In this document: positions 19,895 to 37,930 of the stretch, piece by piece
How the letters are laid out: every line of letters starts with the position of its first letter
How positions within the stretch are numbered: the first letter of the stretch is position 1
Source: Chloroflexi bacterium bin125
Lineage (GTDB): Bacteria; Chloroflexota; Dehalococcoidia; Bin125
NCBI GenBank assembly: GCA_002239025.1
Contig: MPNM01000022.1
Span: 1-47,421, forward strand
Reading direction: 5' to 3'
DNA: 47,421 nucleotides
The notes under the pieces: generated by a model
Seen by the model: the letters and a program-made list of their open reading frames with translations, nothing else
Database searches by the model: none
What the model was told of the DNA's origin: nothing
Translations under genes and position numbers: made by a program

Positions 19895-19923
19895 TGCAAT
19901 CCGAGTGCAATCTGACTGCAATC
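19895..19923. promoter_or_regulatory. Iteron array A: three TGCAATC units at 11-bp spacing
   Basis: TGCAATC begins at 19895, 19906 and 19917, exactly 11 bp apart, so all units face one side of the helix. The array is upstream (on the minus strand) of the 65-aa HTH-like gene. A GGGGGGAAGGAGCCCC block follows it, as in array D. Confidence 0.75.
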
Positions 19924-20004
19924 CGGGGGGAAGGAGCCCCAGACACCCACTGGTTGCCGATTTCCTCCTGTAGAGGTGCCCAAGTCCAGACCAGGACTGG
20001 AGAG

Positions 20005-20052
20005 CCGGACTCGATTGCAATTATCAATCGAGTCCGGATTCCTGTACACGCC
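20005..20052. promoter_or_regulatory. Perfect 13-bp palindrome plus GTGTACAGGAAT box (unit A)
   Basis: CCGGACTCGATTG and its exact complement flank CAATTAT (20005-20037). Immediately adjacent is ATTCCTGTACACGCC (20038-20052), read on the minus strand as GGCGTGTACAGGAAT. The same box occurs at 21349, 22933 and 37916. The palindrome arms contain GATTG/CAATC, the core of the iterons. Confidence 0.75.
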
Positions 20053-20190
20053 TCCGACTCCCAACGTGCCGATCCCGCTGTCCGGCCAGATCGAGGGTGT
20101 CGCCGGCAATATTCCCGTCGCAGCGAGCTGTTGGTCCGCGCCACCGGGCGAAGGAGGTCCAGACCCAGACCGAGCCGCCGCGAGACCAGC

Positions 20191-21030
20191 TCAAGCAGAC
20201 CTCCATCGATTGACGAAGCTAAGCGTCGCCAGGCGCAGCAGACGGCGTCGACGCCGCGCCCGCTTGAGCGCCGAGCGAGCCGTCCCAAGCCGCTGGGTCC
20301 GCCGACGCGCTTCCCGCCGGCGTTGGTCCCAGGCCCGGGGCAGCTGGCCGGGCGGCAGGGTGAGGCGGCGCTGCTCGATCAGTTCGAGTTCCAACTCCAG
20401 CATCCGCACCTCGGACTCCAGCCCTTCAAGCGAGGGCCAGTGTTGGTCGAACCGAGCCTGCTGCTGGCGCCACTCGGTAATCAGCGGCATCGCCGCGCCG
20501 AAGACCTCGGCGTCGTCGGGCAACACATCGACCATAACGACCTCGGGGTGGTTGCGGTGGGGAGATCGATGCGCCGTCGAAGCGGTTTCCGACCCTGTCT
20601 CGTCTGGCAGCGACCGAGCCGAAGCGCGGACCTCCTGACGCAGATTCGACAGGTCCTCGCGCAGGCCTGCGAGACCATCGGCCAGTCGCTGCTGCACCTC
20701 CTGTAGACGCCGCTCCAACCCTTCCACTCGCAGTTGCAGTTGGTCGCCACTCGGCGCTTCACGTTCGGCGGTAATCTGTATTCGTTCCAGCGCGTCCCTC
20801 AGTCTGGGCGTGAGCCGACCCGCATCGAGCGCCCGCCAGACGGTCTTGCGGTCGACGCCCAGCTGATTGGCCGTCTTGGACGAGCCCTGCTCCTCGGTCA
20901 GCAGCCGCAGGAGTTGGAGCAGCGGGTCCTGGTCCTGGCCATCGTCCACGCCCGAGGGGTCAGGTGGTTCCGCCCCTGAGCGAGCGCCTGTCTCCTGCGG
21001 GTCTTGAGCATCGCGCCTCGACTCATCCAC
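20191..21030 (-). CDS. HTH protein with coiled coil and helical C-terminal domain
   Basis: The 279-aa product starts at ATG 21030 with GGGAGG upstream. After a disordered acidic N-terminus (~32 residues) comes a helical segment with a compact HTH (SSKTANQLGVDRKTVWRALD, ~50-70) and an extension (GRLTPRLRDALERIQI). A long coiled coil follows (~95-130, LRVEGLERRLQEVQQRLADG). A C-terminal domain contains GAAMPLITEWRQQQARFDQH and ends in an extremely Arg-rich tail. The AMPLITEW segment recurs as ALPLIAEW in the small gene at 22409-22660, so the two genes share a domain. It is probably a DNA-binding, oligomeric regulator or iteron-binding protein; the specific role is inferred from repeats upstream at 21139-21232. 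Confidence 0.7.
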   Translation of the reverse strand: MDESRRDAQDPQETGARSGAEPPDPSGVDDGQDQDPLLQLLRLLTEEQGSSKTANQLGVDRKTVWRALDAGRLTPRLRDALERIQITAEREAPSGDQLQLRVEGLERRLQEVQQRLADGLAGLREDLSNLRQEVRASARSLPDETGSETASTAHRSPHRNHPEVVMVDVLPDDAEVFGAAMPLITEWRQQQARFDQHWPSLEGLESEVRMLELELELIEQRRLTLPPGQLPRAWDQRRREARRRTQRLGTARSALKRARRRRRLLRLATLSFVNRWRSA

Positions 21031-21138
21031 AGCTGCCTCCCTGAGGTGGGCGATGGGGGCGCTTGTTCGTCCGAGGCCCGTCGGTCACCGGCGCCACCGT
21101 CCCCGATCGTGTGGCCCCGTTGACAGAAGGCCCGTGGC

Positions 21139-21232
21139 AGTCGGGGGCAGTCGGGGGCAGGTATCCGGTAGGCGGCCGCCCCACCCCGCCCTGCATGTTC
21201 CAACTGCCCCAGATCAGCCCCAGATTGCCCCA
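21139..21232. promoter_or_regulatory. Iteron-like array B1 with GCCCCA core
   Basis: CAGTCGGGGG is repeated head to tail from 21138. Around 21200-21230 the core GCCCCA occurs three times at 11-bp spacing (CTGCCCCAGAT, CAGCCCCAGAT, TTGCCCCATTA), flanked by GTTCC and GGAAC. The array is upstream of the 279-aa HTH gene in the place where the other units have TGCAATC. Confidence 0.55.
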
Positions 21233-21347
21233 TTACTCCGGAACCAGCCCTTCCACCCCGCCCATCCCAGTTGGCCCTGCCTGGGACAGCGTTCGTTCAG
21301 TCCTGGACTGGCGATCGTGCCCAGTTGTCCCCCTGCCCCAGGACGGG

Positions 21348-21366
21348 GATTCCTGTACACGCCCAT
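21348..21366 (-). promoter_or_regulatory. GTGTACAGGAAT box (unit B1)
   Basis: On the minus strand the site reads CATGGGCGTGTACAGGAATC, the same box as at 20038, 22933 and 37916. In this copy and in unit C it is preceded by GTCATGG. It lies 318 bp upstream of the 279-aa HTH gene, distal to array B1. Confidence 0.6.
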
Positions 21367-21419
21367 GACACCACGGACCCGCCTGGCTCGAAAAGGGCGC
21401 GGACGCCGTGTCACGGGTG

Positions 21420-22000
21420 TCATGGCGCACGCCCTGTCGCCCTCCCAATCGCCGCGCTTCGTGGATCGGCCTGGATGCCGGCGTGTCCTCGGCGCTTGAC
21501 GGTGTGACTGGGTGGATGATCTCAAGCACGCTCCGCCCATGGTCGAATGCCGGACGCATGGGAGACGAAGCGCGAACAGAGGGGTGGGAGCACTGCAATC
21601 GACTGCAATCGGAGTGCAATCCAGGTGCAATCTGGTGCAATTGCGCTCGGATCGGCGGGCGCTCAGTGGCGGTACGGGCACGAAGCGACCGGACTGCGCA
21701 TCGCCACATCATCCAGATCATATGGCGGCAGTCCGGTCAGTCGTCCACTCAGCGGTCGGCGAGTCGTTGCCACGAGCCGGAGACCGGTTCCGCAATTCGA
21801 GCGAGTCTCAGGAGAGCCAGGCTCAATCCCTTGACCAGTTCGCGCAGCGGGGGCGCTTGTCTCTCAGTGGGCCGGACCATCGGGAGAGCAAAGCTCAATC
21901 CTCTGGCCGAACCCGGGTTGGAGACGAACCCACCAGTGTTCTAGGCGAGAACAACTGGCAAAAGCCGGAAACCACCCCCAGTAGTACGCCTGCCGACCGC
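21420..22000. repeat. Dispersed repeat R2 (copy 2 of 3) containing iteron array B2
   Basis: No credible gene. It has the GGTGTGACTGGGTGGAT motif at ~21500. TGCAATC/T units at 21594, 21604, 21615, 21626 and 21636 are five phased iterons. A block of ~350 bp shared with R3 contains GCGACCGGA, CACATCATCCAG, GGCAGTCCGGTCAGTCGTCC and GAGCGAGTCTCAGGAGAGC. Two successive hairpins follow: CCAGTGTTCT with AGAACAACTGG (21933-21958) and GGC-AAAA-GCC, followed by GGAAACCAC. Confidence 0.7.
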
Positions 22001-22129
22001 AGATGGCAACGGTACGAAGGTTGTCGCCGGCCGATCGCTTGCCGCGATGTGCCGACAGTGTGACGGCGAGGTATCTGGCCACGTCCCTAGCGCGGTGGCC
22101 CGATACGCTGCCGGGCGGAGGCCGTCGTT

Positions 22130-22384
22130 TTGATCACCCCGCAGCAGGTCCAGCTCGCACTCGAACTGGTTGAACCGCAGGGCAGCTACGCGCCCAGCGA
22201 CTTCACCCTGGTCGCGGAGCGGGCGAACGACGAACTTGCCGCCTGGGGACATGCGGGTCACGAGGTTGCACTGGAGCGCGTGGTCCCGTTCTACGGCGAC
22301 CCGCGCGTGCTGCGCTGGTCGTTCTGGTGCGAGACCTGCCACGTCTCCCAGCTGGCGCTGCTCTCGCGACCGGCCGCCAGCTGA
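22130..22384 (+). CDS. Small protein with FWCETCHVSQL motif (intact family member)
   Basis: The 84-aa product starts at TTG 22130 with GGGCGGAGG about 8 nt upstream. It is a compact α/β sequence (TLVAERANDELAAWGHAGHE in the middle) ending in WSFWCETCHVSQLALL. The CxxC-H tail could bind a metal or act as a redox pair. A frameshifted relative lies at 31293-31528 (FWCESCHVSQL), and a more decayed one near 23247-23300 (FWCESGHIS followed by a stop). All three follow repeat or iteron regions. No known family is recognised. Confidence 0.6.
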   Translation: MITPQQVQLALELVEPQGSYAPSDFTLVAERANDELAAWGHAGHEVALERVVPFYGDPRVLRWSFWCETCHVSQLALLSRPAAS

Positions 22385-22408
22385 GAGATCGACCCCGACT
22401 TCCTTGGG

Positions 22409-22660
22409 TCACCCAGCCAGCCAAGCACTCGCTGCTAGCTCAGATCCTGTAGTTGCCCATCCCCCCAGCCCTGGTTTGTCGGTACCCGCTACCGCCCCCC
22501 CCCACAGTCCCAGCGTGTGCAGCCGCGCCGACCAGTGCAGCATCCATGTCCAGCGCCACTCGGCGATCAACGGCAGTGCTCCCAGGTAGCCCCGCTCCTC
22601 GTACCGACCCAGGGCCCGTGCGACCTCCTCGCGCAGCACCGCATCCTCGTCGTCCTCCAT
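22409..22660 (-). CDS. Small protein sharing the PLI(A/T)EW domain with the HTH protein
   Basis: From ATG 22660 the 83-aa product begins with an acidic helix (MEDDEDAVLREEVARALGRY), then YLGALPLIAEWRWTWMLHWS, which matches the C-terminal domain of the 279-aa HTH protein (AMPLITEWRQQQARF). It ends in a low-complexity Gly/Thr tail. The open frame continues upstream toward iteron array C, so the start is uncertain. No HTH is visible. It may be a truncated derivative of the HTH protein beside its own array. Confidence 0.45.
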   Translation of the reverse strand: MEDDEDAVLREEVARALGRYEERGYLGALPLIAEWRWTWMLHWSARLHTLGLWGGAVAGTDKPGLGGWATTGSELAASAWLAG

Positions 22661-22802
22661 GTTGTCCGTGTTGTGCACGTCGACATCAAGCAGTTCCGCC
22701 GTCCCCAACCCGCCATGCGTCTTGCTGGCTGCTGTGGTCCACTTGTCCGCCTCCCCTGATTCGTTGATCTGCCTGGACTGAGCGCCACCAGGCGCGATCG
22801 AG

Positions 22803-22949
22803 TGCAATCGACTGCAATCAACCGTGAACCAGAGGTGGACAAAGATCGTTTGCCGATTGCACTCTGTCGGACGCGCTTCGCCCCTGATTTTCCTACTGAT
22901 CGAGGCCAGATTGCACTGTGCAATCGACCCTCGATTCCTGTACACGCCC
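22803..22949. promoter_or_regulatory. Iteron array C, inverted iteron pair and GTGTACAGGAAT box
   Basis: TGCAATC at 22803 and 22813 (10 bp apart), an inverted GATTGCA at 22855, and the palindrome GATTGCA-CTG-TGCAATC at 22909-22925 are followed by GATTCCTGTACACGCCCATGAC starting at 22932. The order matches units A and D, upstream of the 22409-22660 gene on the minus strand. Confidence 0.7.
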
Positions 22950-23093
22950 ATGACGTCACAGCGCGCCCGATCTCGGCTAGGGGTCCAGGGCATGGCGTCG
23001 TCCCTGATTGTTGTCCCGCAGTCCGCCTGCGAACACACTCCAGAGCATCGCCAGCACATCAACAGAGCATCGATCTGCGCAAGGAGGCGGATC

Positions 23094-23300
23094 GATGAAG
23101 GTGCGAGCGGGTAACCGCCAGGGGTGGCGTTGGGGCGCGGCCGCCGGGTGGTGCACCGCCGCAATGATCGCGATGCCGCTCTGGGGCGTTGATCTCGAAT
23201 GGATGAAGCAGGGCGAGAACTGGATCGAGCGCGAGCAGCACGGCAAGTCCGGTGTCCCGGTCTGCCCGTTCTGGTGCGAGAGCGGCCACATCTCCTAGCT
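23094..23300 (+). pseudogene. Decayed member of the FWCESCHVSQL small-gene family
   Basis: The frame from the ATG at 23094 ends with CPFWCESGHIS and then a TAG, where relatives continue as VSQL. After the stop the same frame reads LTVLDEVEL, resembling LLVLPE in the relative at 31293-31528. The second Cys of the CxxC is replaced by Gly. The 5' part is not clearly homologous. I regard it as a relic. Confidence 0.45.
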
Positions 23301-23542
23301 GACGGTGCTGGACGAGGTGGAACTCCGGTAGGCAAAGAACGGGCAAGTCGAAGCCGGCTGTAGCCTCGCGAAGCCGCAGGGTCCCCCTGAGCTCACTGGC
23401 CGGCAAAGTCCACAACAGTCGGCGAGGAGCTGCCCGGCGACCGATCGGATCGCATGAGGAGCGACCCTGGTGGTCGGCCGGTCACTCGGCCCACTCGGGC
23501 CTCACAGCTCGATAGGGTTGACACACGACCTGGAGGCGCGCC

Positions 23543-24688
23543 ATGACCAACTGTCTAAACCTGCTCAAAGCGGCGCTGCCAATCCTGGCGCTGGCCGCCG
23601 TTCTGGTCGGCTGCAGCGCCGATCCGCCAGCTCGTCTGCCTGAGCAGATCACCGCCGCCATTGTCTACAACGAGCAGGCCGAGCGCTGGCACGCGGGCGC
23701 TATGGTCTCGGGCGACCGTCCCTACTCGTCGCTCAGGGTCTTGTGCCTTACCGAGGAAGGTAAACCGGGGGTTGACGCTGGCGACAGCCACACGGGTATC
23801 AACGTCGATGCGTCACCTGGCGAACAGCAGGAGGGCGAGTACTCATGGAGTAGCTCGGTCAGCCCGTCGGACATCACAGATCCTGAGAGCGTGTGGGGGC
23901 GCGAGTGGGCATGGCAGCTCGACGGGCAGCCCTGGCAAGGGGGTCGCTGGCGCATGAGCACGAACACCAGACCTGCGAACCTGGTTGCGGAGAGTGAAGA
24001 AGTGGAGTCGGCCTTCTTCGACGATCTTCAGCGGGCCCAGACCGCTGAGTTGATCGGCAGCAGAGAGGGAGCGGATGATCTCAGCATCACGTTCGATCTC
24101 TCGTCGCTGTTCGGCACCCCGGCGCAGTTCGCCATTGACGACTGCGACGGTGGCGCGATCGAACAGCACGCCGGCGCGTATCACTCGGCGTACGCCTACT
24201 GGTTGCCTGACTGGGAGCGGCACAGCATCACCTTGATCGAACGCGATCCTGCCGCGGATCGCAGGGTCATCATCAGTTGCAGTCCGAAGGGATGGACCGA
24301 CGACGATGCGCCGGCCTGGATCCGGGAGGCGAAGGGTGATGTCTACGCCGCCGCAACGCTGATGGGATTCGTGGAAGATTCCGAGCACGACCATGAACAA
24401 GCCAACGCCCCTGTCGTCGAATCCGCGACGGTGTCATGGGTGGATGACGACGGCAACGCGGGGACGGCGGTTTGGCAGGTGAACCACAGCTGGATGCACC
24501 CGCCTTCAGCGGCCGAGAACCTGCGGTTCATCGATGCGCTGCGCGGGTCGGAGGAGCTCACCGTCACCGTTGAGCTGCCTGATGCCGCGCCGATCGAGGT
24601 CCGCTTGCGAGGCGCAGCGCTGTTCGCGAAACCGATGGGCGCTGAGTTGGACACTTGCATTCGGGAGTTCGCTGAACTCAATGGCTGA
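23543..24688 (+). CDS. Lipoprotein of unknown function
   Basis: The 381-aa product has a lipoprotein signal: a hydrophobic stretch (LLKAALPILALAAVLVGC) with LVGC as lipobox, so it is expected to be diacylated and anchored outside the membrane. The mature part is acidic and β-rich with several Trp. It seems to repeat a module twice (residues ~35-215 and ~225-380), each with an early Tyr/Trp-rich strand, a central S-W/W-x-D segment and a DxC near the end (DDCDGG, LDTCIREF). No known domain is recognised. TTGACA at 23519 could be a -35 element of a promoter. Confidence 0.75.
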   Translation: MTNCLNLLKAALPILALAAVLVGCSADPPARLPEQITAAIVYNEQAERWHAGAMVSGDRPYSSLRVLCLTEEGKPGVDAGDSHTGINVDASPGEQQEGEYSWSSSVSPSDITDPESVWGREWAWQLDGQPWQGGRWRMSTNTRPANLVAESEEVESAFFDDLQRAQTAELIGSREGADDLSITFDLSSLFGTPAQFAIDDCDGGAIEQHAGAYHSAYAYWLPDWERHSITLIERDPAADRRVIISCSPKGWTDDDAPAWIREAKGDVYAAATLMGFVEDSEHDHEQANAPVVESATVSWVDDDGNAGTAVWQVNHSWMHPPSAAENLRFIDALRGSEELTVTVELPDAAPIEVRLRGAALFAKPMGAELDTCIREFAELNG

Positions 24689-24782
24689 AAGACCTGATGC
24701 GCCGGTCATCGTCATCGGAGGAGGCGCCGGCGGCTCTACCGCCGTCAATCTGCTGGCCTGGCTTGCCCAAGCGGACAACTGA
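24681..24782 (+). CDS. 33-aa ORF with Rossmann GxGxxG start (truncated flavoprotein relic?)
   Basis: ATG 24681 overlaps the end of the lipoprotein gene. The peptide reads PVIVIGGGAGGSTAVNLLAW near its start, the classic first β-strand and Gly-rich turn of an FAD/NAD-binding fold, and stops after 33 codons. Too short to fold as an enzyme, so it is more likely a relic of a deleted flavoprotein gene than a functional gene. Confidence 0.4.
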   Translation: MAERPDAPVIVIGGGAGGSTAVNLLAWLAQADN

Positions 24783-24902
24783 TAGCGGCCGCCGAGCCGC
24801 CAACGAACCGACTACGCATTGGCTAGCCTGCGGAAGTGCGGCGCGCTGACCCCGCCCGCGGCCGCCGAGAGCCGCTTGTCCCGCCGCACTCTCGCTCAGG
24901 CG

Positions 24903-24932
24903 CTCCCGGTAGACCGACGACGGTCCCGGGAG
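24903..24932. terminator. Hairpin in a gene-poor stretch
   Basis: CTCCCGG pairs with CCGGGAG and encloses ACCG-ACGA-CGGT, giving a near-continuous stem. It may end transcription from the lipoprotein gene. The rest of 24783-25134 shows no convincing gene. Confidence 0.45.
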
Positions 24933-25134
24933 TGCCTCTTGCGCGGCGCAACCGCACCGCGCCGTTGAGGCCGGTTGAGCCTGTCATGGGGCGCTGCTGG
25001 AACACTCCCGGAGCATCTCCGTCGGCTGCGTCCAGCGCCGGGAACGTGATCAGTTGCTCAGACCTGGTCTCGCCAGCCGCGCCGCCTACGGGCCGGCGGG
25101 GTTCTGGCCCGACTGACTCAGCGCAGCATCAGTC

Positions 25135-25632
25135 TCAGTCATAGTCGGGCATGCACGCTGCGCTGACTTGTCGGTCAATCACCAGCAAGCGGTAGCGCAG
25201 ATCGATCGCCATCCGGCGGGTGTCGGCGTGCTGCGCTTCGGACTCGGGAACGTCATCGAGCCGCTCCTGCAGCTCTGCGGCGGTGGCGCCCAGATCATCC
25301 CAGGCATCGAGCTGGGCGGGGTCGTCCCAGAAGGTGAAGCAGGTGTAGATCGGGTCGGTGTCCGGCGGGCACGACGTCCAGCCGACGGACTCGAACTGGT
25401 AAGCGGCGGGCCATGCCTCGAAGCCGTCGAATCGGATGATGGCGAACAACGCGACCGCCGTTGCCAGCAGCAGGCCGACCAGCACGACCACGGTCCAGGC
25501 GAGTTGCCGGTTCACGGATTGTGGCTCTCGTTGCGACGATGACCAGTTCTCAGCTCGGAAGGCCGACCTGATCGACTCGCCGCTGGGGGTCTGAGCGCCG
25601 CGAGCTGCCCGGAACAATTGGCGTCTCGCCAT
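25135..25632 (-). CDS. Single-pass membrane protein with remnant of the primase-like zinc protein at its N-terminus
   Basis: The longest frame (165 aa, ATG 25632) begins with GESIRSAFRAEN, which matches CGESIWSAYRAED in the 185-aa protein at 16272-16829; the DNA matches too (GATCGACTCGCCGC). A linker and a strong transmembrane helix follow (AWTVVVLVGLLLATAVALF), then an acidic outer domain with three or more Cys (TSCPPDTDPIYTC, ending SAACMPDYD). A GTG at 25515, just before the helix, is an alternative start. It would also leave room for the divergent promoter of the 25645 gene. It appears to be a chimera, or a gene built over a decayed third copy of the zinc protein. Confidence 0.6.
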   Translation of the reverse strand: MARRQLFRAARGAQTPSGESIRSAFRAENWSSSQREPQSVNRQLAWTVVVLVGLLLATAVALFAIIRFDGFEAWPAAYQFESVGWTSCPPDTDPIYTCFTFWDDPAQLDAWDDLGATAAELQERLDDVPESEAQHADTRRMAIDLRYRLLVIDRQVSAACMPDYD

Positions 25633-25644
25633 CGTCTCTTGGAC

Positions 25645-28437
25645 ATGGTGACTCGGCCGCGAACACTACTTCTGTTTCCGATGTGTCTGCTGCTCGCGAC
25701 GCTGGCGCACTCCGCTCTTGCAGCCTCACACGCACCGCTGGAGATCGAGATATCCAACTCGCGCGAGGTCTGTACGATTGGGACCTTCACCGAGATCACG
25801 TGGGCGATCAGAGGCGGGATTGCCCCGTACACCCTGACCATCAATGGCTCGGCGATCGATCCTGAACGCACTTCCGAGAGAGTTCTGTGTGGATTAGCGG
25901 AGGGGCTCAACGACCCTGGGCAGCTCAACGCCTTCAACCGTGCGGTCGTCCGGGGGACGGTCGTGGACGGAAAGAACCAGACATCTTCCGGCGTCATTTC
26001 GATCCGGCTCAGTCCAGCGCTTCCACCTCCCGAACGAGCGTTCGCCGGAGTTTGGCAAGAATGGTCCGACTACCGGGTCGCCTCACTGTACGCCGGTGTT
26101 GACAGGCAGTGGTCCGGGGGTTCCAGGCAGCATTCAGCATCGCCGTCGCTGTTCCTGATTCGCTGGCGTCCGGCTGGAGAGACATCCTGGAGCTATCTGG
26201 TTGAAGAGGAGCCCGACTCTGGAGTCTACTTCAGTCGAAGCCTGCAACGAATCCCGGTGAACGCGGTGTATGAAGTGCAGCTGAGCCAGCAGAGGGTGTT
26301 GATTGAGCACGAGACGCCCGAAGCGCTGCGTTGGACCCGGGTCCTGAATGCCGTGAGCGCTGGACCACCCCGAGATGTCACGGTTCAGACGACGAGCCAT
26401 AGCGCGGTCGTCGCATGGCAGGCCAATCGCAACCAAACCGGCTGGCAAATCCAGATCTCACCAGTTGATCCAGACCGTTCATCTGACAGGTCTCAGGAGA
26501 CCGTGAGAGTGCAGGGTCAGCACTCATATTCGGTCGAGTTCAACAGACTCCGAGCAGACACTGCGTATTCGATCATGCTCAGGCAAGACTCGCCCTCGAC
26601 ACTCCCGGAGGCCACGTTTGACATTCGCACGGAACCGGAGCGGTTCGACGCGTCGCATCCGGACGACGGTCCAAGGATCACGTCGGTCACGCCATCGATC
26701 GGCGCGCGGGGGCTGATCGGACTGATCACCGAATGGGACTCGCCGACGACCGGCAACGAGACGCCGTACCGGGTGTACGCGCATGAGTTCGCGACACCTA
26801 TCGACTGGCACGACGCACCCGAGGTTGGATCGGATCGTCGTCAGACGCTGATCACCGGGATTCGGCCGGACACGCTCTACCGGGTAGTGGTGGAACGCGT
26901 CGATTTGCATCGGACTCGCGATGAGGTCCTGATTCGGACACCCGCAGAGTCGTTTGAGGACAAATCCGTCTACCGGTGGCAAATCCCGAATCTGTACGTC
27001 AGTTGGCGAACCTGGAACGTGTCGGGCAGAGAGCGCAGGGGATTTGTGGCGACCTGGGAGCCGCAGTATCGAGATGGATACGTCCAGATTCAGTGGCAGA
27101 AAGACGGGCGCACGATGAACAGGTACGGCGAGGCGCCGGTGGTCATAGAAGTCGCGCGGCCGGGGAGCTATCGGTTTCGAGCCAGGTTCCTCAAGAATAA
27201 TCGGTGGTCGGAGTGGACCGCGTGGCAGCATGAGACGACCAAGCCCGAACCACCGTCCAACCATTCCGTCCGCGTATCCGAACGAGCAGGGGCGATCAAG
27301 CTCGAGTGGTCGGAGTCTAGTCACTCGCTGACCCCGGTGGATGCGTACCGGGTGTATGTCAGAGGCATTGGAGACATCGAGCAGGTGTTCGATGTCTCTG
27401 GCCGCACCGGGCTGAGGATTCCGTTGGCCAGGCCGGAGAACTCGATTGAAGTGCAGATCGCCTCGGTGAGCGAGCAACATGGCGTCGGCCCACGATCGGA
27501 ACCCGTAGCAGTTCACACAGGGGCTGCGCCGAGTCTCATCAAGACAGACCAGGTGAGGTGCGACCCCTATGGCGGATTGCCGGGCATCCTTCGCTGGCAG
27601 ATTTTGGGGGGCGCCGCTCCGTTTCTGATCCATCTGGAAGGTCAAAGGCCGTTCGAGACCGTGGAGTCCAGCGGAGAAATGGTGGTGCATTGCGGGGCGG
27701 TCGCCGAAGATGGAACGCTCTCGAAAGAGTCGGTCACGCTCTCGGTGGAGGACGCTTACGGGCGACGCAATGAACTCAAGGTCACGGTCTCGCCGATTCC
27801 GCTGCACCAGGACGAGGAAGACCGAAGTGTCTCAATCACTCCTGTCAGCGTCTACAGCGTGACCGACAGCGAAGCTCACCTGGGCTGGCCGTGTTCGGCC
27901 TGGAGCGTGTTCGGTTGGGGACCCAGGCCGCCGGCAGTCTTCCAGCTTCGTTGGCGGACCCGGGAGTCTTCCAACTGGTCGTATCAGGAGATCGTGACGA
28001 GGACGTGGGGACCAAAACTGGGAGACGTGTGCCGCTGGATCTGGAGGGACCTGGCTCCGGGAACGGCCTACGAATTCCAGATCGCCCATGTGGCTATTCG
28101 CAGCCAGAGCAAAAGCGCAGAACGATTGCACTGGACTCACCCGGAGCCTTTCACCACGCTGAGTGAGGCTCGAAACGTCGTGGTCCGACGAGTTGGTGCG
28201 AACGTTGAGGTCACCTGGGATGCGCAACCGCATGCCTGGCTGCACCAGGTGATCCTACGCGGCGAGCACTCCAGTTGGTGGAAGCTCTATCGACCGAACG
28301 GCGAGGATTCGGAGCGCGCGATCTTTGAGGACATCCCCGTCGACGACGATGTGGATGTTGAGATCGTGTCGCCGCCCAAGTTTCGCCGGGAGCCGCTGAT
28401 CGGTCCAGGATTCCAGCGGTACATCCCTCCCCACTAG
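25645..28437 (+). CDS. Large secreted fibronectin-type-III-like protein (paralogue of 35314-37455)
   Basis: From ATG 25645 the 930-aa product has a signal peptide (LLLFPMCLLLATLAHSALAA, cleavage probably after LAA). About eight β-sandwich units follow. Several are FnIII-like, with Trp in strand B (VVAWQANRNQTGWQIQI, KLEWSESSHSL) and a Tyr-corner-like segment (LRADTAYSIML, IRPDTLYRVVVE, LAPGTAYEFQIA). Two related modules start with conserved CxxGxFTEITWAI and CDPYGGLPGILRW segments. The last ~90 residues (VILRGEHSSWWKLY, IFEDIPVDDDVDVEI) match the end of the 35314-37455 protein, so the two are paralogues. It is likely a cell-surface or secreted binding protein; its ligand is unknown. Confidence 0.8.
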   Translation: MVTRPRTLLLFPMCLLLATLAHSALAASHAPLEIEISNSREVCTIGTFTEITWAIRGGIAPYTLTINGSAIDPERTSERVLCGLAEGLNDPGQLNAFNRAVVRGTVVDGKNQTSSGVISIRLSPALPPPERAFAGVWQEWSDYRVASLYAGVDRQWSGGSRQHSASPSLFLIRWRPAGETSWSYLVEEEPDSGVYFSRSLQRIPVNAVYEVQLSQQRVLIEHETPEALRWTRVLNAVSAGPPRDVTVQTTSHSAVVAWQANRNQTGWQIQISPVDPDRSSDRSQETVRVQGQHSYSVEFNRLRADTAYSIMLRQDSPSTLPEATFDIRTEPERFDASHPDDGPRITSVTPSIGARGLIGLITEWDSPTTGNETPYRVYAHEFATPIDWHDAPEVGSDRRQTLITGIRPDTLYRVVVERVDLHRTRDEVLIRTPAESFEDKSVYRWQIPNLYVSWRTWNVSGRERRGFVATWEPQYRDGYVQIQWQKDGRTMNRYGEAPVVIEVARPGSYRFRARFLKNNRWSEWTAWQHETTKPEPPSNHSVRVSERAGAIKLEWSESSHSLTPVDAYRVYVRGIGDIEQVFDVSGRTGLRIPLARPENSIEVQIASVSEQHGVGPRSEPVAVHTGAAPSLIKTDQVRCDPYGGLPGILRWQILGGAAPFLIHLEGQRPFETVESSGEMVVHCGAVAEDGTLSKESVTLSVEDAYGRRNELKVTVSPIPLHQDEEDRSVSITPVSVYSVTDSEAHLGWPCSAWSVFGWGPRPPAVFQLRWRTRESSNWSYQEIVTRTWGPKLGDVCRWIWRDLAPGTAYEFQIAHVAIRSQSKSAERLHWTHPEPFTTLSEARNVVVRRVGANVEVTWDAQPHAWLHQVILRGEHSSWWKLYRPNGEDSERAIFEDIPVDDDVDVEIVSPPKFRREPLIGPGFQRYIPPH

Positions 28438-30479: not shown

Positions 30480-31160
30480 CTCAGTTGAGCCGTGGTTGTG
30501 GGCAGGACCCTGTGGATGGTGAACCGACCCGGCATCCCCGTATCGCGTACGGTGCAGGCCTGGCGCGGTTCGTCGCGGTTGATGGTGTGACTGGGTGGAT
30601 TGGACTGGACGCACTTGTCCCGCGGCGCGGTGCGGACACGTGGAACTGGGCGCGATCTGGGGTGTTGGACGCGATCCGAGATCAACAGCAGGCCGGTTGG
30701 CCGCTGTGACGGAAGGGCGCGGGCATGAGAAGACCGGCCTGCAGCGCGCGCAGATAGGGGTGGGAACGCCGCAATTGGGTCCCGTCGGGTGCAAATGTGC
30801 TCGGATCGTCGGGCGGTCAGTCGCAGGTTGGGCACATAGCGACCGGACGGCGCAGCGCCACATCATCCAGGTCATGTGACGGCAGTCCGGTCAGTCGTCC
30901 ACTCAGCAGTCAGCGATTCGTTGCCACCAACTCGGAGACCAGTCCCGCACTTCGAGCGAGTCTCAGGAGAGCAAGGCTCGATCCGTCGACGAGTTCGCGC
31001 AGCGGTGGCGCTTGTTTCTCAGTGTGCCGGACCAGCGGGAGAGCTTGGCTCTAGCCCGAGGCGCGGTTCCGGGTCAAGGACGAACCCGCCAGCTTTCTCA
31101 GGAGGAAACGCTGGCCAAAAGGCCGGAAACCACGTTCAGTAGAACGCCGCCGGAGACGAG
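30480..31160. repeat. Dispersed repeat R3 (copy 3 of 3)
   Basis: The left part (to ~30750) is colinear with R1: GGTGTGACTGGGTGGAT at ~30582 and GGCATGAGAAGACCGGCCTGC at ~30722. The right part is colinear with R2: a decayed iteron zone at ~30770-30800, GGCAGTCCGGTCAGTCGTCC at ~30881, GAGCGAGTCTCAGGAGAGCAA at ~30954. Two hairpins close it: CCAGCTTTC with GAAACGCTGG (31089-31114) and GGCC-AAAA-GGCC, then GGAAACCAC. No credible gene lies inside. Confidence 0.7.
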
Positions 31161-31292
31161 ATCGCAACCGTGTGACGCAAGCGGATCGAGTCGTCGCACG
31201 CACGAATGTTCAATCGGCGACAATAGTGCAGCTGAGATGGATACTCGGTTCCCGGAGATCGCCGCTTCAGCGCCGAAGACGCGACGAAGCAC

Positions 31293-31528
31293 ATGAACAC
31301 GACCGAGCAACTGGCCGCCGCATTGCGACGCGCCTGGCCCCCACTCACCGCAAGGCGTGCGCCCGGTCTGGCCCGTGAGGTGAGCGCGAGCTGCGGCGCT
31401 GGGGCCATGCGGGCCGTGAGGTCAGCCTGGAGCCGGTCGGCCGGATACCCGACGAGCCCAGTTCCCTGGGCTGCCTGTTTTGGTGCGAGAGCTGTCACGT
31501 CTCCCAGCTGTTGGTGCTGCCCGAGTGA
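31293..31528 (+). pseudogene. FWCESCHVSQL small gene, frameshifted
   Basis: From ATG 31293 the first frame reads MNTTEQLAAALRRAW; around 31378-31382 the sense moves to another frame giving ERELRRWGHAGREVSLEPV and then LGCLFWCESCHVSQLLVLPE to TGA 31528. The second part aligns with the intact member at 22130-22384. One indel separates the two parts. Confidence 0.6.
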
Positions 31529-31649
31529 GCGGTCCGATAGTAGAGAACGGGGAGACTGCGCGGCGGTCGGCTGAGGGCCGAGTGTCGACAGTGAGTACGG
31601 CGTTGGGTGGAGCAGGATCTGCGCTCTCGCGCGGCTGCCTGATGCCCGC

Positions 31650-31967
31650 TCAGAGCGCGTCGCGCAGGCGCTTGAGCGGGCGCAGCTTGAGCTTGCCCCG
31701 CGCTCGCGCGGGCCGGGCCGCAATCGTGATCGGCTCGCCGGTGGCCGGGTTGCGGCCGGCGCGCTCCGCCCGGGCCGCCTCGGGCCGCACCTCGGCCTTG
31801 ACCAGCCCGGCGACGGTGACCGCGCCCGGGCCGTCCGCCGAGAGCTCTTCCAGGACCACCTCGGAGAGCGCGTCGAGCACGCGCTCGACCTCGCGCGCCT
31901 CAAGGTGGGTGCGTTCGGCGACGGCGCGATTCAGCTGCGCCTTGGTCTTGGCTGGGGCGTCGGTCAT
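31650..31967 (-). CDS. HU/IHF-family histone-like DNA-binding protein
   Basis: The 105-aa product starts at ATG 31967 with AGGAAG 8 nt upstream. It has the HU fold in order: helical N-terminus (KAQLNRAVAERTHLEAREVE), dimer strand region (VTVAGLVKAEVRP), and the β-arm with the family's RNPATGEPITIAA motif. A basic end (KLKLRPLKRLRDAL) is the last strand and helix. Normal HU has a G-F-G turn before the strand that here is degenerate. By family it binds and bends DNA and compacts chromosomes or helps recombination. It faces the same way as the 171-aa winged-helix gene upstream. Confidence 0.85.
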   Translation of the reverse strand: MTDAPAKTKAQLNRAVAERTHLEAREVERVLDALSEVVLEELSADGPGAVTVAGLVKAEVRPEAARAERAGRNPATGEPITIAARPARARGKLKLRPLKRLRDAL

Positions 31968-32125
31968 GGCGGTCGCTTCCTGTTCGTTCGGGGTCGGTCG
32001 GCCTGTGATTGTTGCGCGGGCTGGCCGTACGCGCAATCGGCCGTCGACACCCGAGCCGGTTGGGTGGAGGTGCCGGTCCGTGCTGAGCTGGTTTCAGCCG
32101 GACACGGCTGCCGCCGGGACCGTGA

Positions 32126-32641
32126 TCAGATGCCGATGCTCGGGCCTGAGCCGAACGACTTGGTCGAGACGACAACCGGTGGGCCGCCACTCGGTGCAAC
32201 CGGGGCCGGAGTCTCCGCCGCCTCCGGAGAGGAGACCAGCCGCCAGTGGTTGCGTCCCGTGTTCTCCAGTTCGCCCGTCTCCTTGAGCCGCTGCAGGCTG
32301 GACTGCAGGGTTGCCATCGGTTGGGCCGAGCGCGGCGCCGCGTTGTGCTGTTCGAGGTAGGCCAGGATCTTGGTCGCGTGCACCGGTTCGCGCTGCTGGC
32401 CCAGGAACTCACGGATCTTGGCGCTGATCAGCCCGCGCGGCAGACGCGAGCGCTTGGGGGACTGCGCCTGACGTCGAACGCCGCGCCGTCTGGTCGGCTT
32501 GTCTGCCGCCGTCGAGCTAGGCGGACCGGACCCCAGGCTCAACAGCTCTTCGATCAACCGCCGTTTCGCGGCCAGCAAGTCCAACTGCGCCTGGATGCCG
32601 TCGAGTTCGGTTCGCAGCTGAACGGCGAATGGGTCAGCCAT
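32126..32641 (-). CDS. Coiled-coil plus winged-helix-like DNA-binding protein
   Basis: The 171-aa product starts with a coiled coil (AVQLRTELDGIQAQLDLLAA), then a basic Arg/Lys-rich linker (~45-70). A winged-helix-like domain follows (~72-135): ISAKIREFLGQQREPVHATK, ILAYLEQHN, TLQSSLQRLKETGELENTGR, NHWRL. The tail is Pro/Ser-rich. GAGAGGAC precedes the ATG. It is 158 bp upstream of the HU-like gene on the same strand and may be a regulator or nucleoid-associated partner; that is inference. Confidence 0.7.
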   Translation of the reverse strand: MADPFAVQLRTELDGIQAQLDLLAAKRRLIEELLSLGSGPPSSTAADKPTRRRGVRRQAQSPKRSRLPRGLISAKIREFLGQQREPVHATKILAYLEQHNAAPRSAQPMATLQSSLQRLKETGELENTGRNHWRLVSSPEAAETPAPVAPSGGPPVVVSTKSFGSGPSIGI

Positions 32642-32996
32642 GGGCGTTCGTCCTCTCAGTGATGATCTCCGTGGATCAGGCGCGTTTCAGCATAGGAGTG
32701 CGCTCCAAGGGCGAGCCCACCGGGCCTCCCGGTGTCGACTCAGCGGGCAATCGATCGCTCCAGAGCCAGGCCGGCGCGCGTTTGCCCCGGAACCCCATCG
32801 TGCCGCACGCGCCGAACATCGTAAGGATCCCCGAGCAGGTGGCGCCGATCATCGGTCTGAACGCCGAGTCCCGCGCCGATCCCCTACATTTCGAGGTCAG
32901 TGGCTGGCTGCGCACAGGCGCGCGGTTGCCATTTCGTTGCTGCCTGGCTGCCTTGATCGAGCGCTGTCGGGGAGGCTCGCCTGCTGGCATGTTGAC

Positions 32997-33125
32997 TCAC
33001 GAGATATTCGCGCCGATCAAGCCGACGAAGATCAACAGCACGGGGCTGACCCCGACCGTGAGGTTGGCGTGGGCCAGGTCGGAATCACCGATGAATTTGC
33101 TGAAGAGTCTCACCATGATGCCCAT
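32997..33125 (-). CDS. Possible small membrane peptide
   Basis: From ATG 33125 (GAGGA upstream) a 42-aa frame reads MVRLFSKFIGDSDLAHANLT and ends in a single hydrophobic helix (VGVSPVLLIFVGLIGANIS). A short amphipathic part before one helix is typical of small membrane proteins, but nothing else supports it. The flanking 32642-32996 contains no other convincing gene. Confidence 0.4.
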   Translation of the reverse strand: MGIMVRLFSKFIGDSDLAHANLTVGVSPVLLIFVGLIGANIS

Positions 33126-33728
33126 CGGTCCTCGCCTTCGGCGGAAACGCGGCACGCCCGAGCAGCCGAGATCGCTGGCGCGCGGTGGAGCAGTCCCCGC
33201 CCCCGCATTAGTTCGCACTCTGGTGGTGGCCGCTCACGCCGTCAACTGTCCCGGTCATCCACGGGCAACTCGCAGACGGTGTCTGTAGCAAATCAGCAGC
33301 GATGGGTCTTTGGCGTCGGCAGCTGAAGTTCCGGCGGGTGCGGCGAGACCGGGACGTGATGGACATCAGCGCAGCCGGCGCTGGCCCCTGGGCGGTTCCT
33401 GTAGGTGAGCAGGTGAAACAACAGGAGGTCCTCGCGGCCGCTCGCTGACGCGCAGCGGCTCCACGATCCGCGCCTGACTGGTTCCGAGCCAAGCGTTCCC
33501 GAAGGAGATCCGAACTGGCCCGTGTCTCGACGCTGCAGCGCTGTTGCGATCAACTCCTGGACCTGGTCCAGCATCGGTCGAGCGGCGCTTGGTTGGTTCC
33601 TCGGCAGTCGCCGCCGAGTTCGCCGGGCGGAGCCGACACTTGCGCGCCGCGGCGGTGCGGGAGGATGGCCGCGGTCGGCGTTACCTGAGTCGCGTGCAGA
33701 GCGAAATCAGGGCGAGCGCAAGACGCTG
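33126..33728. other. Gene-poor interval
   Basis: Several overlapping frames are open on both strands because of the high GC, but none has a good ribosome site plus protein-like composition. A minus-strand frame at 33293-33574 contains a plausible patch (GREDLLLFHLLTYRNRP) and might be a relic. Confidence 0.4.
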
Positions 33729-34505
33729 TCAGACTCCGTCCGCGTCGGCCAGCTCGCGAGGTAGGCGGTAGACCACTTCCATCGGCAGCCCGCGAGCGTC
33801 GCGTTGCGGTTCGGGCGGGATCGATTGCAGGTCGCCCAGGAACGGGTGAGTGCCAACGGCGGTCAGCGCCGTGGCCAGCGCATCGACGACGACGGCTAGG
33901 GGGACCTTGGGCCGGGACCCGCGCCACACATCGTCGAAGAACTCGTGAGCCCAGGGCAGGTACTCGACGAGCACTCCCAGGCGCTCTGCGATTCCCTCCG
34001 GCTGCGCCTTCGAGCACGACATCGGACGCCCGCCGTTGAGCCCCCAGAAACACAACTCGCGGTGCGCCTCGCGCAGTTTCCCGCGCGCATCTGCGTCGGT
34101 CAACATGAGCGCGTCGAGTTCGGCAATCTTGGCCACCATCGCCGCAGACTGCTTGCTGAGTTTCTTACCCAGTGCGCGATGGTTGCGTTCCGACAGCGCC
34201 TCGTATGATCTCGCCTCCCCAGAGCGGAACGCCTCCACGGCGGCGCGGCTCGGGACCGGGGAGACCGAGTGGTGGCGCTGTGGCTTGAGCAAGTCCCTGG
34301 CCAGTTGGAACGCCGCTCGCCTCGGATGCCCAGCGTCTTGCAGCCCGATCGGAATACCGACCAGGATGCTGGAGGCGTCGCCCCAGGCGCCCATGAGCGA
34401 GGTCACGTCGGGAAAGACCTCGGCGCTCGCTGGCCTGGCGAGATTGTCGTCGATCCGCACGGCGACCCATCCGCCCGGACATACATTCGCACCAACGAAA
34501 GCCAT
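33729..34505 (-). CDS. DUF429 family protein (RNase H-fold, predicted nuclease) with altered acidic residues
   Basis: The 258-aa product matches DUF429 along its length: VCPGGWVAV at the N-terminus, IPIGL, a conserved Arg/Ala-rich helix, SVSPVPSR, the KLSKQ segment, and REAHRELCFWGLNGG with a nearby SK. DUF429 is predicted to have an RNase H-like nuclease fold. In most members an Asp precedes CPGGW (GVDGCPGGW) and another precedes IPIGL (DIPIGL). Here these are Asn/Val (GANVCPGGW) and Gly (GIPIGL), so catalysis may be lost or differ. The upstream ribosome site is weak. Confidence 0.8.
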   Translation of the reverse strand: MAFVGANVCPGGWVAVRIDDNLARPASAEVFPDVTSLMGAWGDASSILVGIPIGLQDAGHPRRAAFQLARDLLKPQRHHSVSPVPSRAAVEAFRSGEARSYEALSERNHRALGKKLSKQSAAMVAKIAELDALMLTDADARGKLREAHRELCFWGLNGGRPMSCSKAQPEGIAERLGVLVEYLPWAHEFFDDVWRGSRPKVPLAVVVDALATALTAVGTHPFLGDLQSIPPEPQRDARGLPMEVVYRLPRELADADGV

Positions 34506-34637
34506 CTGCAGCGTTTCTTAACTCTCCATACCCTTCGCCTAAGGTAGTTCTGGCCGCCAAGCGTTGTGGGGCAGTCGGCGGAGGCAGATTGAGACGAAGA
34601 CTTCAGCTAAACCTGCCGCGCGGCCTGTCAACCAGGA

Positions 34638-35063
34638 TCAACCGGTGGCGTCACCGAAGTCCAACAGCTTGCGCAGGTCCTGCCGCAATGAACCCGCGTG
34701 TTCCGCGACCAGTCGCTCGAGCTGTGCGCCGTCAATCAGCTCGATCCGCGGGAAGCCGGTCTGCACGGCTACCTGCTTCGCGTCTGGGCTGAACGCGCTG
34801 GTGGTCACGAACAGACCATGTCCCCCAGTTGGAATCGCACTGCGCAACTGTTGCAGCATCGCCGGTCCGATGATCCCGGTCGCGCGGTAACGCTTGACCT
34901 GAACGAACAGCTGGAGTTCGGCCAAGCCGGCAGCGTTGAGCTTGGCACGGACTTCGCCGCCGCCGTCACCGGACTTGCCTGTTCTCCGCACCGCGGCGCA
35001 GCCCATTGCCTTGAGCAGCGCCGCCACCAGTCGTTCGCTTTGCGGCGCATCAAGTTCCAACAT
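34638..35063 (-). CDS. Mrr-like restriction endonuclease domain protein
   Basis: The 141-aa product (ATG 35063; a TTG at 35117 would add 18 atypical residues) is a stand-alone Mrr_cat domain: SERLVAALLKAMGC, RTGKSGDGGGEVRAKL, FVQVKRY, GHGLFVTTSAFS, IELIDGAQLERL. The PD-(D/E)XK site is recognisable as GGGE...QVK. The usual catalytic Asp of GGxD is Glu here, with the Q-x-K pair kept. Mrr enzymes cut methylated foreign DNA. There is no cognate methyltransferase next door, which is normal for methylation-dependent enzymes. Activity with Glu is uncertain. Confidence 0.8.
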   Translation of the reverse strand: MLELDAPQSERLVAALLKAMGCAAVRRTGKSGDGGGEVRAKLNAAGLAELQLFVQVKRYRATGIIGPAMLQQLRSAIPTGGHGLFVTTSAFSPDAKQVAVQTGFPRIELIDGAQLERLVAEHAGSLRQDLRKLLDFGDATG

Positions 35064-35313
35064 TCGGCGGATGAGCGTGCGCGGGCACGGCTGAGTCACC
35101 CTCCGCCGGCTGGCCAACTACGTTTGATCCGCTTGTTCGGACCGGCAACACCGCAAGGTCACGCGTGTCCGGACGCTGCCGAGCGATGGGGGGGGCGCAC
35201 TGATCACCAGGTCGATGGGTTCGGCGCGTCCAGAATCCACCCCATGTCGCAATGGGCCGCCCATGTGGGAGGCTGGACGGCGAGCGGTCGCAGTGACTGC
35301 GGGTGGACTGCTG

Positions 35314-37455
35314 CTAGCCAACCCACTGGGGAGTGCCCACCGGCGGCATGATCACTTCGACGTCGAGCTTCGTCCCAGCGGGGATTCCCTTGAACACGAT
35401 CGTTTCGACATCCGCCCCGCTCGCGTCGTGCCGCTGCCACCAGCTCTCGCCCGTGCCTCGCAGCACGACGCTGTAGGTCGGGACGCCCGGCACCGCGTTC
35501 CAGCGCACGGTGATCGATGTCCCAACCCGCGAGACTTCGGCGCGAACCGCTTCGGGCCAGGTCCGCACCTCCTGCAGGCTCGACCATGCCTGGGCCGGAA
35601 TCTCTTCGGCGCGCAGGCCAGGAAAATCGAGGGCCAGCTGGAACTCATAGGAGGTATCGGGCGCAAGCCCCGACCATGCCACGGCCAGGTACTGAGCGGC
35701 CCAGATTTTGACGCTGTCGCGCTCGTAGGTCCATTGCTCCTGGCCGCCGACCCGCCACCTGATCCAGAAGCGATAGCCGCCGAGCAGCTCCCACGATTCC
35801 CAAACTGGCGATCGCTCGCCGTAGACGAGCACGCCGACGCGGTCGCTCCCATTGGTGATGTCTCCGAGCTGGGGCGCCACGGATCGTGCACGGTTGAGCG
35901 CTGTAGGGATTGCAGCGCTGCGCCCGCCGTCCTCGATGATCTCGTAGACGAGCGTCTCACTCATCCGCCGACCGAGGTCGTCATCAACCTGGACAGCGAC
36001 TTGCATCACGCGCCTGCCGTCTGGGCCGATACGCCCGTCGCCCGACGCGCAACCCGACTCGAACGCGCCGACGGGGAGAGTCGACGTGATCGGCTCAAGA
36101 TCGCCGACGGTCACCCGATAAGGCGGGACGCCGCGTCGAACCTGCCAGAAGGCTCTCGCGGGAGTCGACGAGCGGAGCTTGCACCTTGACTGCCAATCGT
36201 CGATTCGTAGTTCGAGCTCAGGTGGCGTTCGCAGATCGACTTCCAGTCGAGCCAGGTCGCCCAGGCCGAGGTCGTGGCGGTAGGCGCCGACCAGGAAGAC
36301 GAAGCTCGTCTGCCCCGGAACAAGCTCAAACACGGCGCGGTTCGACCGCCCGGTGTCAATCACCTGCGGCGCGGCGCCCTCGGCGATCAGGTAGGCGCGA
36401 TAGCCGTCGCTGCCCGATGGGTGCCCGCCATACGGCCAGGTCACGTGCAGCTCCGAGCCCCGGCGCTGATAGCGGATTCCCGACTGCGAGGGCGGCCAAG
36501 GCTCAGCGCCGGCGAGGCGGGCCGGCGACCATGCTGACGATGCGCCCTGACGGTCGACCCACCTGATCCGAAACGGATAGGGACCGGGATCATCGCTGTA
36601 GTAGACGAAGGTCGGCCCCGGTCCGACCCGAGACATCCGGCGACCGTCCCGAATCCATTCGACTTCGAGCGGATCTGCATTGTCTGATTCGACTGACACC
36701 GTGAACGCCCAACCTGGCATCTTGCGTGAGCTGGAGACGGCAACGTCCCACTGCGGCAGCGCGTTCGCGATGGCGGCGCGCTCGCCGACTGGACCTGGGA
36801 TCGCAACCTCCATCGTCCGGCCATAGCCCTCCAGGCCAGATGGCCGAATCGCGACTTCGTACCGCGTCCCGCGCAAGAGGGGCTTGGACAGGATGGCTTG
36901 CGAGCGGCATGCCAAGGTGCGGGATTGGGACGCCTGCGGCGCACCGTATTCCTTGATCTCAACTTCGAGTTCACGGTCCAACGCGCTGTGCAAGCACGTC
37001 CAATAGACGATGATCCGATCTCCGGCCACAGCGGCACCGATGTTCTCTGCGATGTTCGCTTCCCACCAGTGCGGCGGCACTGGCTCAGTTCGAAACGAAA
37101 CAACGGTCGAGTAGCGTCTGGAGCGCGCCGGTTCGGCTAGCTCGATGACATAGACGCGGTCCGGATCCAATCCGTCGATCGTCAACTCGTAGGGAGCTTG
37201 CGGACCCACGCTGAACTCAGCTACGGGCCAGATGGGGAAGCCGCTAGTTAGGAACTCACGGCCTTCATAGAGCCGCACATCGTAGACCCGGCCGGCGGGC
37301 GCGTCCCAACTGAGGTGCGCCTCGTCGTGCGTGGCATGGGCCGTGACCTGCAGTGATTCGTTCACGACGTTCGCTGGCGTTGCCGCCTCGGCCAGAACCG
37401 AGCACGCGAGACCGAGCGCCACAATCGCCAATAGGAGCGTGAGTCGGCGCGTCAC
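35314..37455 (-). CDS. Secreted fibronectin-type-III-like protein (paralogue of 25645-28437)
   Basis: GTG 37455 has AGGAGG 7 nt upstream and opens directly on a signal peptide (TLLLAIVALGLACSVLAEA). The 713-aa product contains FnIII-like units with the usual strand-B Trp and Tyr-corner (AHLSWDAPAGRVYDVRL, LDPDRVYVIEL, LAPDTSYEFQLAL). A Cys-bearing module (CKLRSSTPARAFWQVRRG) equals the CDPYGGLPGILRW module of the paralogue. The C-terminus (SVVLRGTGESWWQRH, VFKGIPAGTKLDVEV) is shared too. Compared with the paralogue it has one or two fewer repeats. Expected outside the cell; function unknown. Iteron array D lies ~300 bp upstream of its start. Confidence 0.8.
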   Translation of the reverse strand: MTRRLTLLLAIVALGLACSVLAEAATPANVVNESLQVTAHATHDEAHLSWDAPAGRVYDVRLYEGREFLTSGFPIWPVAEFSVGPQAPYELTIDGLDPDRVYVIELAEPARSRRYSTVVSFRTEPVPPHWWEANIAENIGAAVAGDRIIVYWTCLHSALDRELEVEIKEYGAPQASQSRTLACRSQAILSKPLLRGTRYEVAIRPSGLEGYGRTMEVAIPGPVGERAAIANALPQWDVAVSSSRKMPGWAFTVSVESDNADPLEVEWIRDGRRMSRVGPGPTFVYYSDDPGPYPFRIRWVDRQGASSAWSPARLAGAEPWPPSQSGIRYQRRGSELHVTWPYGGHPSGSDGYRAYLIAEGAAPQVIDTGRSNRAVFELVPGQTSFVFLVGAYRHDLGLGDLARLEVDLRTPPELELRIDDWQSRCKLRSSTPARAFWQVRRGVPPYRVTVGDLEPITSTLPVGAFESGCASGDGRIGPDGRRVMQVAVQVDDDLGRRMSETLVYEIIEDGGRSAAIPTALNRARSVAPQLGDITNGSDRVGVLVYGERSPVWESWELLGGYRFWIRWRVGGQEQWTYERDSVKIWAAQYLAVAWSGLAPDTSYEFQLALDFPGLRAEEIPAQAWSSLQEVRTWPEAVRAEVSRVGTSITVRWNAVPGVPTYSVVLRGTGESWWQRHDASGADVETIVFKGIPAGTKLDVEVIMPPVGTPQWVG

Positions 37456-37761
37456 CGCTGCCTCCTGTTCGCGCCAGCAGCCCGACCGCCGTGACGCATG
37501 ATGAGTGTCCCCGATCCGCAACCAAGTTGTCGACACCACTGTGAGGCCAGAACGAGTTCGGCGACCGACTGCGAGTTCAGTTCCGGCTGTCGAGGCTTGG
37601 CCCGCAGCCGACCCTGGGCACGCGATCCGACCCGCCGTTCACCCGTCCAGCGACGGCCCCAACTCTCCGGCGCTATTGTGCTGCGCAGATGGCGCTGCTG
37701 TCCGGTCGCTGTCCGTCTGCGGTCCGTAACCCCGGACAACCCCCGGCAACCTGGCTAGAAC

Positions 37762-37930
37762 TGCAATCGGAGTGCAATTTCACTGCAATCTGACTGCAAT
37801 CCGGGGGGAAGGAGCCCCAGACACCCACTGGTTGCCCGTTACCTCCTGTAGGAGAGGTCAAGTCCAGTGCAGGACTGGAGATCGGGTGCCGATTGCAATT
37901 GTCAATCGAGTCCGGATTCCTGTACACGCC
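37762..37930. promoter_or_regulatory. Iteron array D, partial palindrome and GTGTACAGGAAT box
   Basis: TGCAATC (one unit TGCAATT) begins at 37762, 37773, 37784 and 37795, exactly 11 bp apart. The GGGGGGAAGGAGCCCC block and the hairpin TCCAGT-GCAGG-ACTGGA (37863-37879) follow, then CGATTG...CAATCG and GGATTCCTGTACACGCC (37914-37930). It is colinear with unit A, but no HTH gene follows; the next minus-strand gene is the 713-aa secreted protein. Confidence 0.75.

Follow-up and report, generated by a model that had tools for sequence, protein, structure and literature searches.

The window (the whole 47,421-nt stretch of DNA analysed here) contains short repeats, TGCAATC on its forward strand and GATTGCA on the other, that are set out in arrays near a constant box, which raises the question of what such a region does and which protein reads it. 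An earlier note had looked for parallels among plasmid replication origins and generic repressor arrays. Comparative analysis suggests instead, with a probability of about 0.6, that box, dyad and iteron array together form the transfer-control region (a putative origin of transfer, oriT, plus operator) of a family of integrative conjugative elements (ICEs) that extends across the class Dehalococcoidia, the setting being one of conjugative elements with a type IV secretion system (T4SS) and a MOBC relaxase.

Arrays and boxes in the window

The pattern TGCAATY has 24 matches in the window; 100 dinucleotide shuffles gave 6.03 on average, and none of them reached 24. The TGCAATC arrays, all of which lie where the earlier note had placed them, are real and well above chance, and the step from unit to unit is 10 or 11 bp throughout, as it had stated. 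The box, GTGTACAGGAAT, is present in four mismatch-free copies, all on the minus strand (20038–20049, 21349–21360, 22934–22945 and 37916–37927). Its proposed tie to the arrays stood for copies A, C and D; the fourth box (B), which adjoins the gene of a 279-aa helix-turn-helix (HTH) protein, had been missed. On the window's minus strand, box, dyad, array and HTH gene follow one another in this order (Table 1). Copies A, C and D each have their first array unit precisely 115 nt from the box, and their direct repeats lie 115–148 nt off it. The colinearity suggested for copies A and D was borne out by an alignment of 249 columns with 80% identity; the difference between the two is precisely one 11-bp unit, which is what arrays gaining or losing repeat units on one face of the helix should show. 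For the five-unit array, no further box-like site was found in 21370–22100, the nearest being box B, ~230 bp off. The general description, a helically phased family of presumably protein-binding units at a fixed position relative to a constant box, holds.

Table 1. Positions of the box regions, their regulators and the associated element genes in the window
Feature	Position	Strand	Remarks
Constant box A, GGCGTGTACAGGAAT	20038..20052	-	exact match
Dyad A beside box, GGACTCGATTG-N7-CAATCGAGTCC	20007..20035	.	11-bp arms, inverted-repeat scan
Iteron array A, 3x GATTGCA at 11 bp	19895..19923	-	starts 115 nt off box
HTH-A gene, truncated, 65 aa	19614..19811	-	in-frame TAG; recognition helix SYRRASNC
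Constant box B	21349..21363	-	
Class-B iterons TGGGGCA	21205..21232	-	21205-21211 and 21226-21232, 21 bp apart
Class-B iteron TGGGGCA adjoining box B	21334..21340	-	
HTH-B regulator, 279 aa	20191..21030	-	recognition helix DRKTVWRAL; sole full-length regulator among the four copies
Lone five-unit GATTGCA array	21594..21642	-	no own box
Constant box C	22934..22948	-	
Dyad C, CGAGG...GATTGCA-CTG-TGCAATC...CCTCG	22901..22933	.	from sequence; like the dyad scored in locus L017
Iterons C, 2x GATTGCA at 10 bp	22803..22819	-	start 115 nt off box
Additional iteron unit of copy C, opposite orientation	22855-22861		
HTH-C gene remnant, HTH domain gone	22430..22720 (approximate limits)	-	translations, tblastn
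Constant box D	37916..37930	-	
Dyad D, CGATTG-ACAATTG-CAATCG	37890..37908	.	from sequence; identical dyad scored in locus L013
Iteron array D, four units at 11 bp	37762..37801	-	starts 115 nt off box
ICE replication half: helicase, methyltransferase, SSB, PD-(D/E)XK nuclease, Rad52-like, primase	5368..17135	-	tblastn against intact ICEs, Pfam

An intact regulator is present only in copy B; the other three copies have the appearance of remnants or of oriT mimics. Intact relatives of HTH-A have 267–285 aa, and no HTH gene or remnant was found beside copy D (tblastn, translations). The A-B-C cluster may consist of leftovers of successive elements, or of oriT mimics like those on staphylococcal plasmids.

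The lone five-unit array is flanked by box B on one side and by a small conserved gene (22130–22384) on the other. The product of this gene (consensus AERAN.EL.AWGHAGHEV...WCETCHVSQLALL) has no Pfam match and is recurrent in these elements, with homologues in loci L015, L049, L054, L055, L168 and L173. Elsewhere the window encodes a GmrSD-type restriction endonuclease N-terminal domain (43112–45175) and a protein of 1716 aa in which bacterial Ig and cadherin-like domains recur (9–5159).

Distribution, regulator family and conjugative gene context

The source genome (3.68 Mb in 66 contigs) was compared, as one of 15 genomes of its genus, with 46 genomes from outside the genus. The members of the genus are metagenome-assembled genomes of Chloroflexota/Dehalococcoidia, and their isolate names suggest a sponge origin. 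The 16-mer GATTCCTGTACACGCC has ten exact copies in the source genome; exact copies are present in 6 of the 15 genus genomes (source genome included) and in none of the 46 others. The earlier note had proposed searching related genomes for the box near arrays of this spacing; arrays of three units at 10–11 bp spacing were found in 5 of the 15 (source genome again included) and in 0/46 beyond the genus, and a reversed control pattern gave 0 matches. Class-A box and iterons, partly with VirD4/MOBC genes, were also met in four loci from bins labelled Bryobacterales, Terriglobia and Gemmatimonadetes (L181, JAPPMC010000026.1; L184, VYAQ01000320.1; L186, VXRL01000048.1; L189, JAPPMC010000081.1), which belong to the same sample series as Chloroflexota bins. 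These represent either cross-phylum transfer or misbinned contigs, and misbinning is favoured because the coverage of the RHO3 and SB0664 contigs resembles that of the Chloroflexota bins.

A search with an HTH-family profile identified about 46 near-complete genes in the first genome set, and more came from further families of the class. The box was found upstream on the same strand, 140–550 bp away, in 71 of 80 HTH paralogues, as against 2/80 for the reverse-strand control. This arrangement spans eight or nine families of the class Dehalococcoidia; in families other than that of the window the box is often preceded by TGATGTCAT. The protein has a weak HTH_8/Fis match and its structural model is all-helical, which points to a helix-turn-helix rather than a ribbon-helix-helix fold. 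The AlphaFold model of the whole protein is weak (pTM 0.42); in it, helix 39–48 starts at Y39-R40-T41, the residues that vary. No fold match to the model was found in the PDB under E 0.001. Two further features were noted around these genes: HTH regions of family f1 carry a second constant stretch, CCAGTGTTTTACCGGGCGAACG, about 50–60 nt after the box (other families have other forms of it), and CGGACA units, perhaps sites of a second related regulator, occur nine times in L015 (about 3820–4020, with an HTH protein of SQRT helix) and also near class-A HTH starts.

The box region is intergenic, lying between the gene of the Fis-type HTH protein and a divergent operon with a PF13814 relaxase and, in most cases, a conjugative T4SS. 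The PF13814 family is that of the MOBC relaxases (PMC5357655). Thirteen relatives share the motif PDA...LE-x-ERRA without variation, which fits PD-(D/E)XK nucleases. A scan of neighbouring ORFs for HUH relaxase motifs gave nothing convincing; PF13814 is the relaxase here. In intact relatives the divergent operon encodes a secreted protein, TrbL/VirB6, a pilin, PrgI (VirB3), a second small membrane protein, VirB4, VirD4 and PF13814; Pfam and tblastn found such T4SS/relaxase operons in families f1, f7, f33 and f96, while the divergent neighbour in f49 is VirD4 plus PF13814. The relaxase is last, first or alone depending on the locus (first or alone in L256, L257, L013 and L052), and the box region still abuts the relaxase operon in the loci examined. 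Past the HTH gene lie genes for a primase, a Rad52-like protein, a nuclease, SSB and a helicase, and past the relaxase the relatives carry a serine recombinase (CcrB/XisF-like), i.e. an integrase linked to the element. On this gene content, the elements are ICEs of Dehalococcoidia. The conjugation module as a whole (VirB4, VirD4/coupling protein, TrbL/VirB6, pilin and relaxase together) was found in the intact relatives and not in the window, where tblastn against intact ICEs and Pfam found no T4SS genes.

Candidate structures at the box were also considered. Inverted repeats with arms of at least 6 bp beside the box were present in 11 of 70 regions (3.2 expected). A hairpin was rejected as a general feature on the basis of this low count, and a hairpin-dependent oriT is consequently not supported for every class. 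A structured RNA was likewise set aside, there being no Rfam match in the window and no general stem beside the box.

Iteron sequence and recognition helix

The box is not, as had been supposed, specific to TGCAATC arrays: several other iteron sequences accompany it, and the sequence after the box follows the class of the HTH protein. Recognition helices of YRT type occur with GATTGCA or TTGCA pairs, DRKT with TGGGGCA and SERT with TGGACA; further classes are DPRT (TTTGCA...TGCAGA), NHKT (TTCCC...GGGAA) and SDKT (GTGGACA...GTCCAC). TTGCA was found after the box in 13 of 17 YRT-type regions versus 3 of 50 others, and TGKGGC in 12/12 DRKT regions versus 3/55 others; the YRT proteins of f49 and one of f88 have no TTGCA there. 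The spacing differs with the sequence (11 and 22 bp for TTGCA, mostly 10–11 for TGGACA, 9 and 21 for TGGGGCA), and it is close to whole helical turns in all three.

In partial Mantel tests, helix similarity was correlated with 6-mer sharing after the box once the remainder of the HTH protein was controlled for (r = 0.20, P ≤ 0.0005, n = 69 regions), and this was still so with the MOBC relaxase as an additional control (r = 0.33, P = 0.0015, n = 28 regions). Relaxase similarity given helix and HTH rest was not significant (P = 0.14). A single clade of the DRKT proteins of f1 and those of f33/f2, a group named after inspection of the tree, was rejected (AU test, P = 0.014), and both sets pair with TGGGGCA. 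In class C the T4SS genes are class-B-like (TrbL 84–87%, VirD4 70–77%), and helix and iterons are class-A-like. Independent helix-switch pairs on well-supported branches amount to 1–3 per class, below what a sign test needs, and a single YRT clade within f1 was not rejected (P = 0.17); the phylogenetic case for a link beyond shared descent is therefore suggestive, not closed.

Since the link between helix and iterons survives the controls for HTH rest and relaxase, the iterons are most likely the binding sites of the linked HTH protein; they would serve as operators and, probably, as relaxosome specificity sites. The 65-aa and 279-aa HTH proteins of the window, treated as equivalent in the earlier note, are not: the former is a truncated class-A protein, and the latter (HTH-B) is of the DRKT class, in whose regions the iteron is TGGGGCA, and it is accordingly predicted not to bind TGCAATC.

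Proposed role of the region and its alternatives

We propose that the HTH protein binds the iterons, i.e. the two units next to the box and, in classes A and C, also the phased array near its own gene (about 115–150 nt from the box). Because the region lies between the HTH gene and the transfer operon, the protein would regulate both, repressing or tuning its own promoter and the operon, and it would double as a relaxosome specificity factor. The constant box would be the common core, most likely the relaxase site; it is probably the core of an oriT, with a promoter or host-factor site as the alternative. Binding, autoregulation and membership of the box in an oriT are what we infer from layout and context, and for the oriT reading by itself we would put the odds at about even. 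ICE lineages would keep core and layout while iterons and N-terminal recognition-helix residues are swapped together, giving separate specificity groups. A more tentative extension, which we hold to be possible but rather less than probable, is that a Fis-type HTH factor and phased iterons have been co-switched repeatedly around a constant relaxase core in ICE oriTs across the class, so that distinct oriT subtypes arose, the tandem A-B-C and the lone D being captured oriT mimics.

Several known systems share parts of this design. In the Enterococcus faecalis pAD1 oriT, TraX binds five direct repeats 70–120 bp from nic (PMC12857230). As in pAD1, a MOBC (PF13814-type) relaxase is encoded beside the region and direct repeats lie distant from the core, the arrays starting 115 nt off the box if the box is taken as nic; in pAD1, however, it is the relaxase that binds the repeats, whereas those described here covary with another protein, the Fis-type HTH. 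The oriT of the pWBG749 family has a constant core and variable repeats read by an adjacently encoded accessory protein, SmpO; subtypes switch, and more than one of them can be found captured next to another as mimics (PMC8136818). The regions described here likewise combine a constant core with variable repeats that match the adjacent protein, in this case by sequence association; however, SmpO of Staphylococcus is a ribbon-helix-helix protein, in contrast to the Fis-type HTH with predicted coiled coil, the phased 7-mer repeats and the Dehalococcoidia host. Layout like that of pAD1 together with core and variable repeats like those of pWBG749 favours a combined oriT/operator region. RA3 (IncU) encodes the auxiliary protein MobC, which controls its own operon through an operator next to oriT and increases transfer (PMC4175270). 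The HTH protein is similarly proposed to act on operators beside a putative oriT, although RA3 MobC is of the ribbon-helix-helix type, its only operator is an imperfect palindrome, the relaxase is MOBP-type, and there are neither phased arrays nor specificity classes.

The strongest competitor is a purely transcriptional region, in which the HTH protein is an autorepressor acting on iteron operators that lie between two divergent promoters, the box is a promoter element or host-factor site and oriT lies elsewhere. We regard this as a serious but less likely possibility: most loci have divergent genes on either side, the TGTACA core is palindromic and might be a dimer site, and phased operators close to the HTH start suit autorepression, a dual role having precedent in RA3 MobC, which both autoregulates and aids transfer (PMC4175270). 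Against it, the box region stays with the relaxase operon though gene order changes (relaxase first, alone or with a full T4SS), box and iterons persist in copies A, C and D, in which the regulator is broken or absent (the decay may be recent), and no promoter motif was recognised on inspection by eye. ATTCCTG is similar to nic sequences of IncP, and GTCGGG to the nic sequence of CloDF13; neither similarity enters the argument.

That the iterons are instead read by a winged-helix part of the MOBC relaxase, with the HTH protein a mere neighbour, is unlikely. TraX of pAD1 offers a model in its binding of five direct repeats away from nic (PMC12857230), and the relaxases here show PadR/MarR-like HTH matches, but relaxase similarity is non-predictive given the HTH protein whereas the helix is predictive given the relaxase. 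It is still less likely that the iterons belong to a replication origin (oriV) used by the element once excised, and that the HTH protein is the initiator. Replicons typically have iterons and the elements carry a primase, SSB, a Rad52-like protein and a helicase; however, the box goes with the transfer genes and not with the replication genes, and, unlike in an iteron plasmid replicon, no Rep initiator gene adjoins the iterons, the HTH proteins having no Rep-family match in Pfam or NCBIfam and no match among PLSDB plasmids. A functionless dispersed repeat or MITE copied around the genome, as the ten exact 16-mer copies (several with decayed genes) might suggest, is very improbable given the constant position relative to one gene family across several families and the swapping of iterons within an unchanged layout.

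In the literature searched, no paper turned up that deals with how conjugation is controlled in these Chloroflexota, most of which are uncultured. About 70 matched pairs of regulator helix and DNA repeat form a natural catalogue for a direct test of a recognition code. The data suggest how transfer specificity diversifies among co-resident conjugative elements, with an HTH protein in the role that in known systems falls mostly to ribbon-helix-helix accessory factors. Captured mimics, if A-B-C and D are such, would let several ICE lineages mobilise one island, and the box, if it is an oriT, would provide a search handle for mobilisable islands across the phylum.
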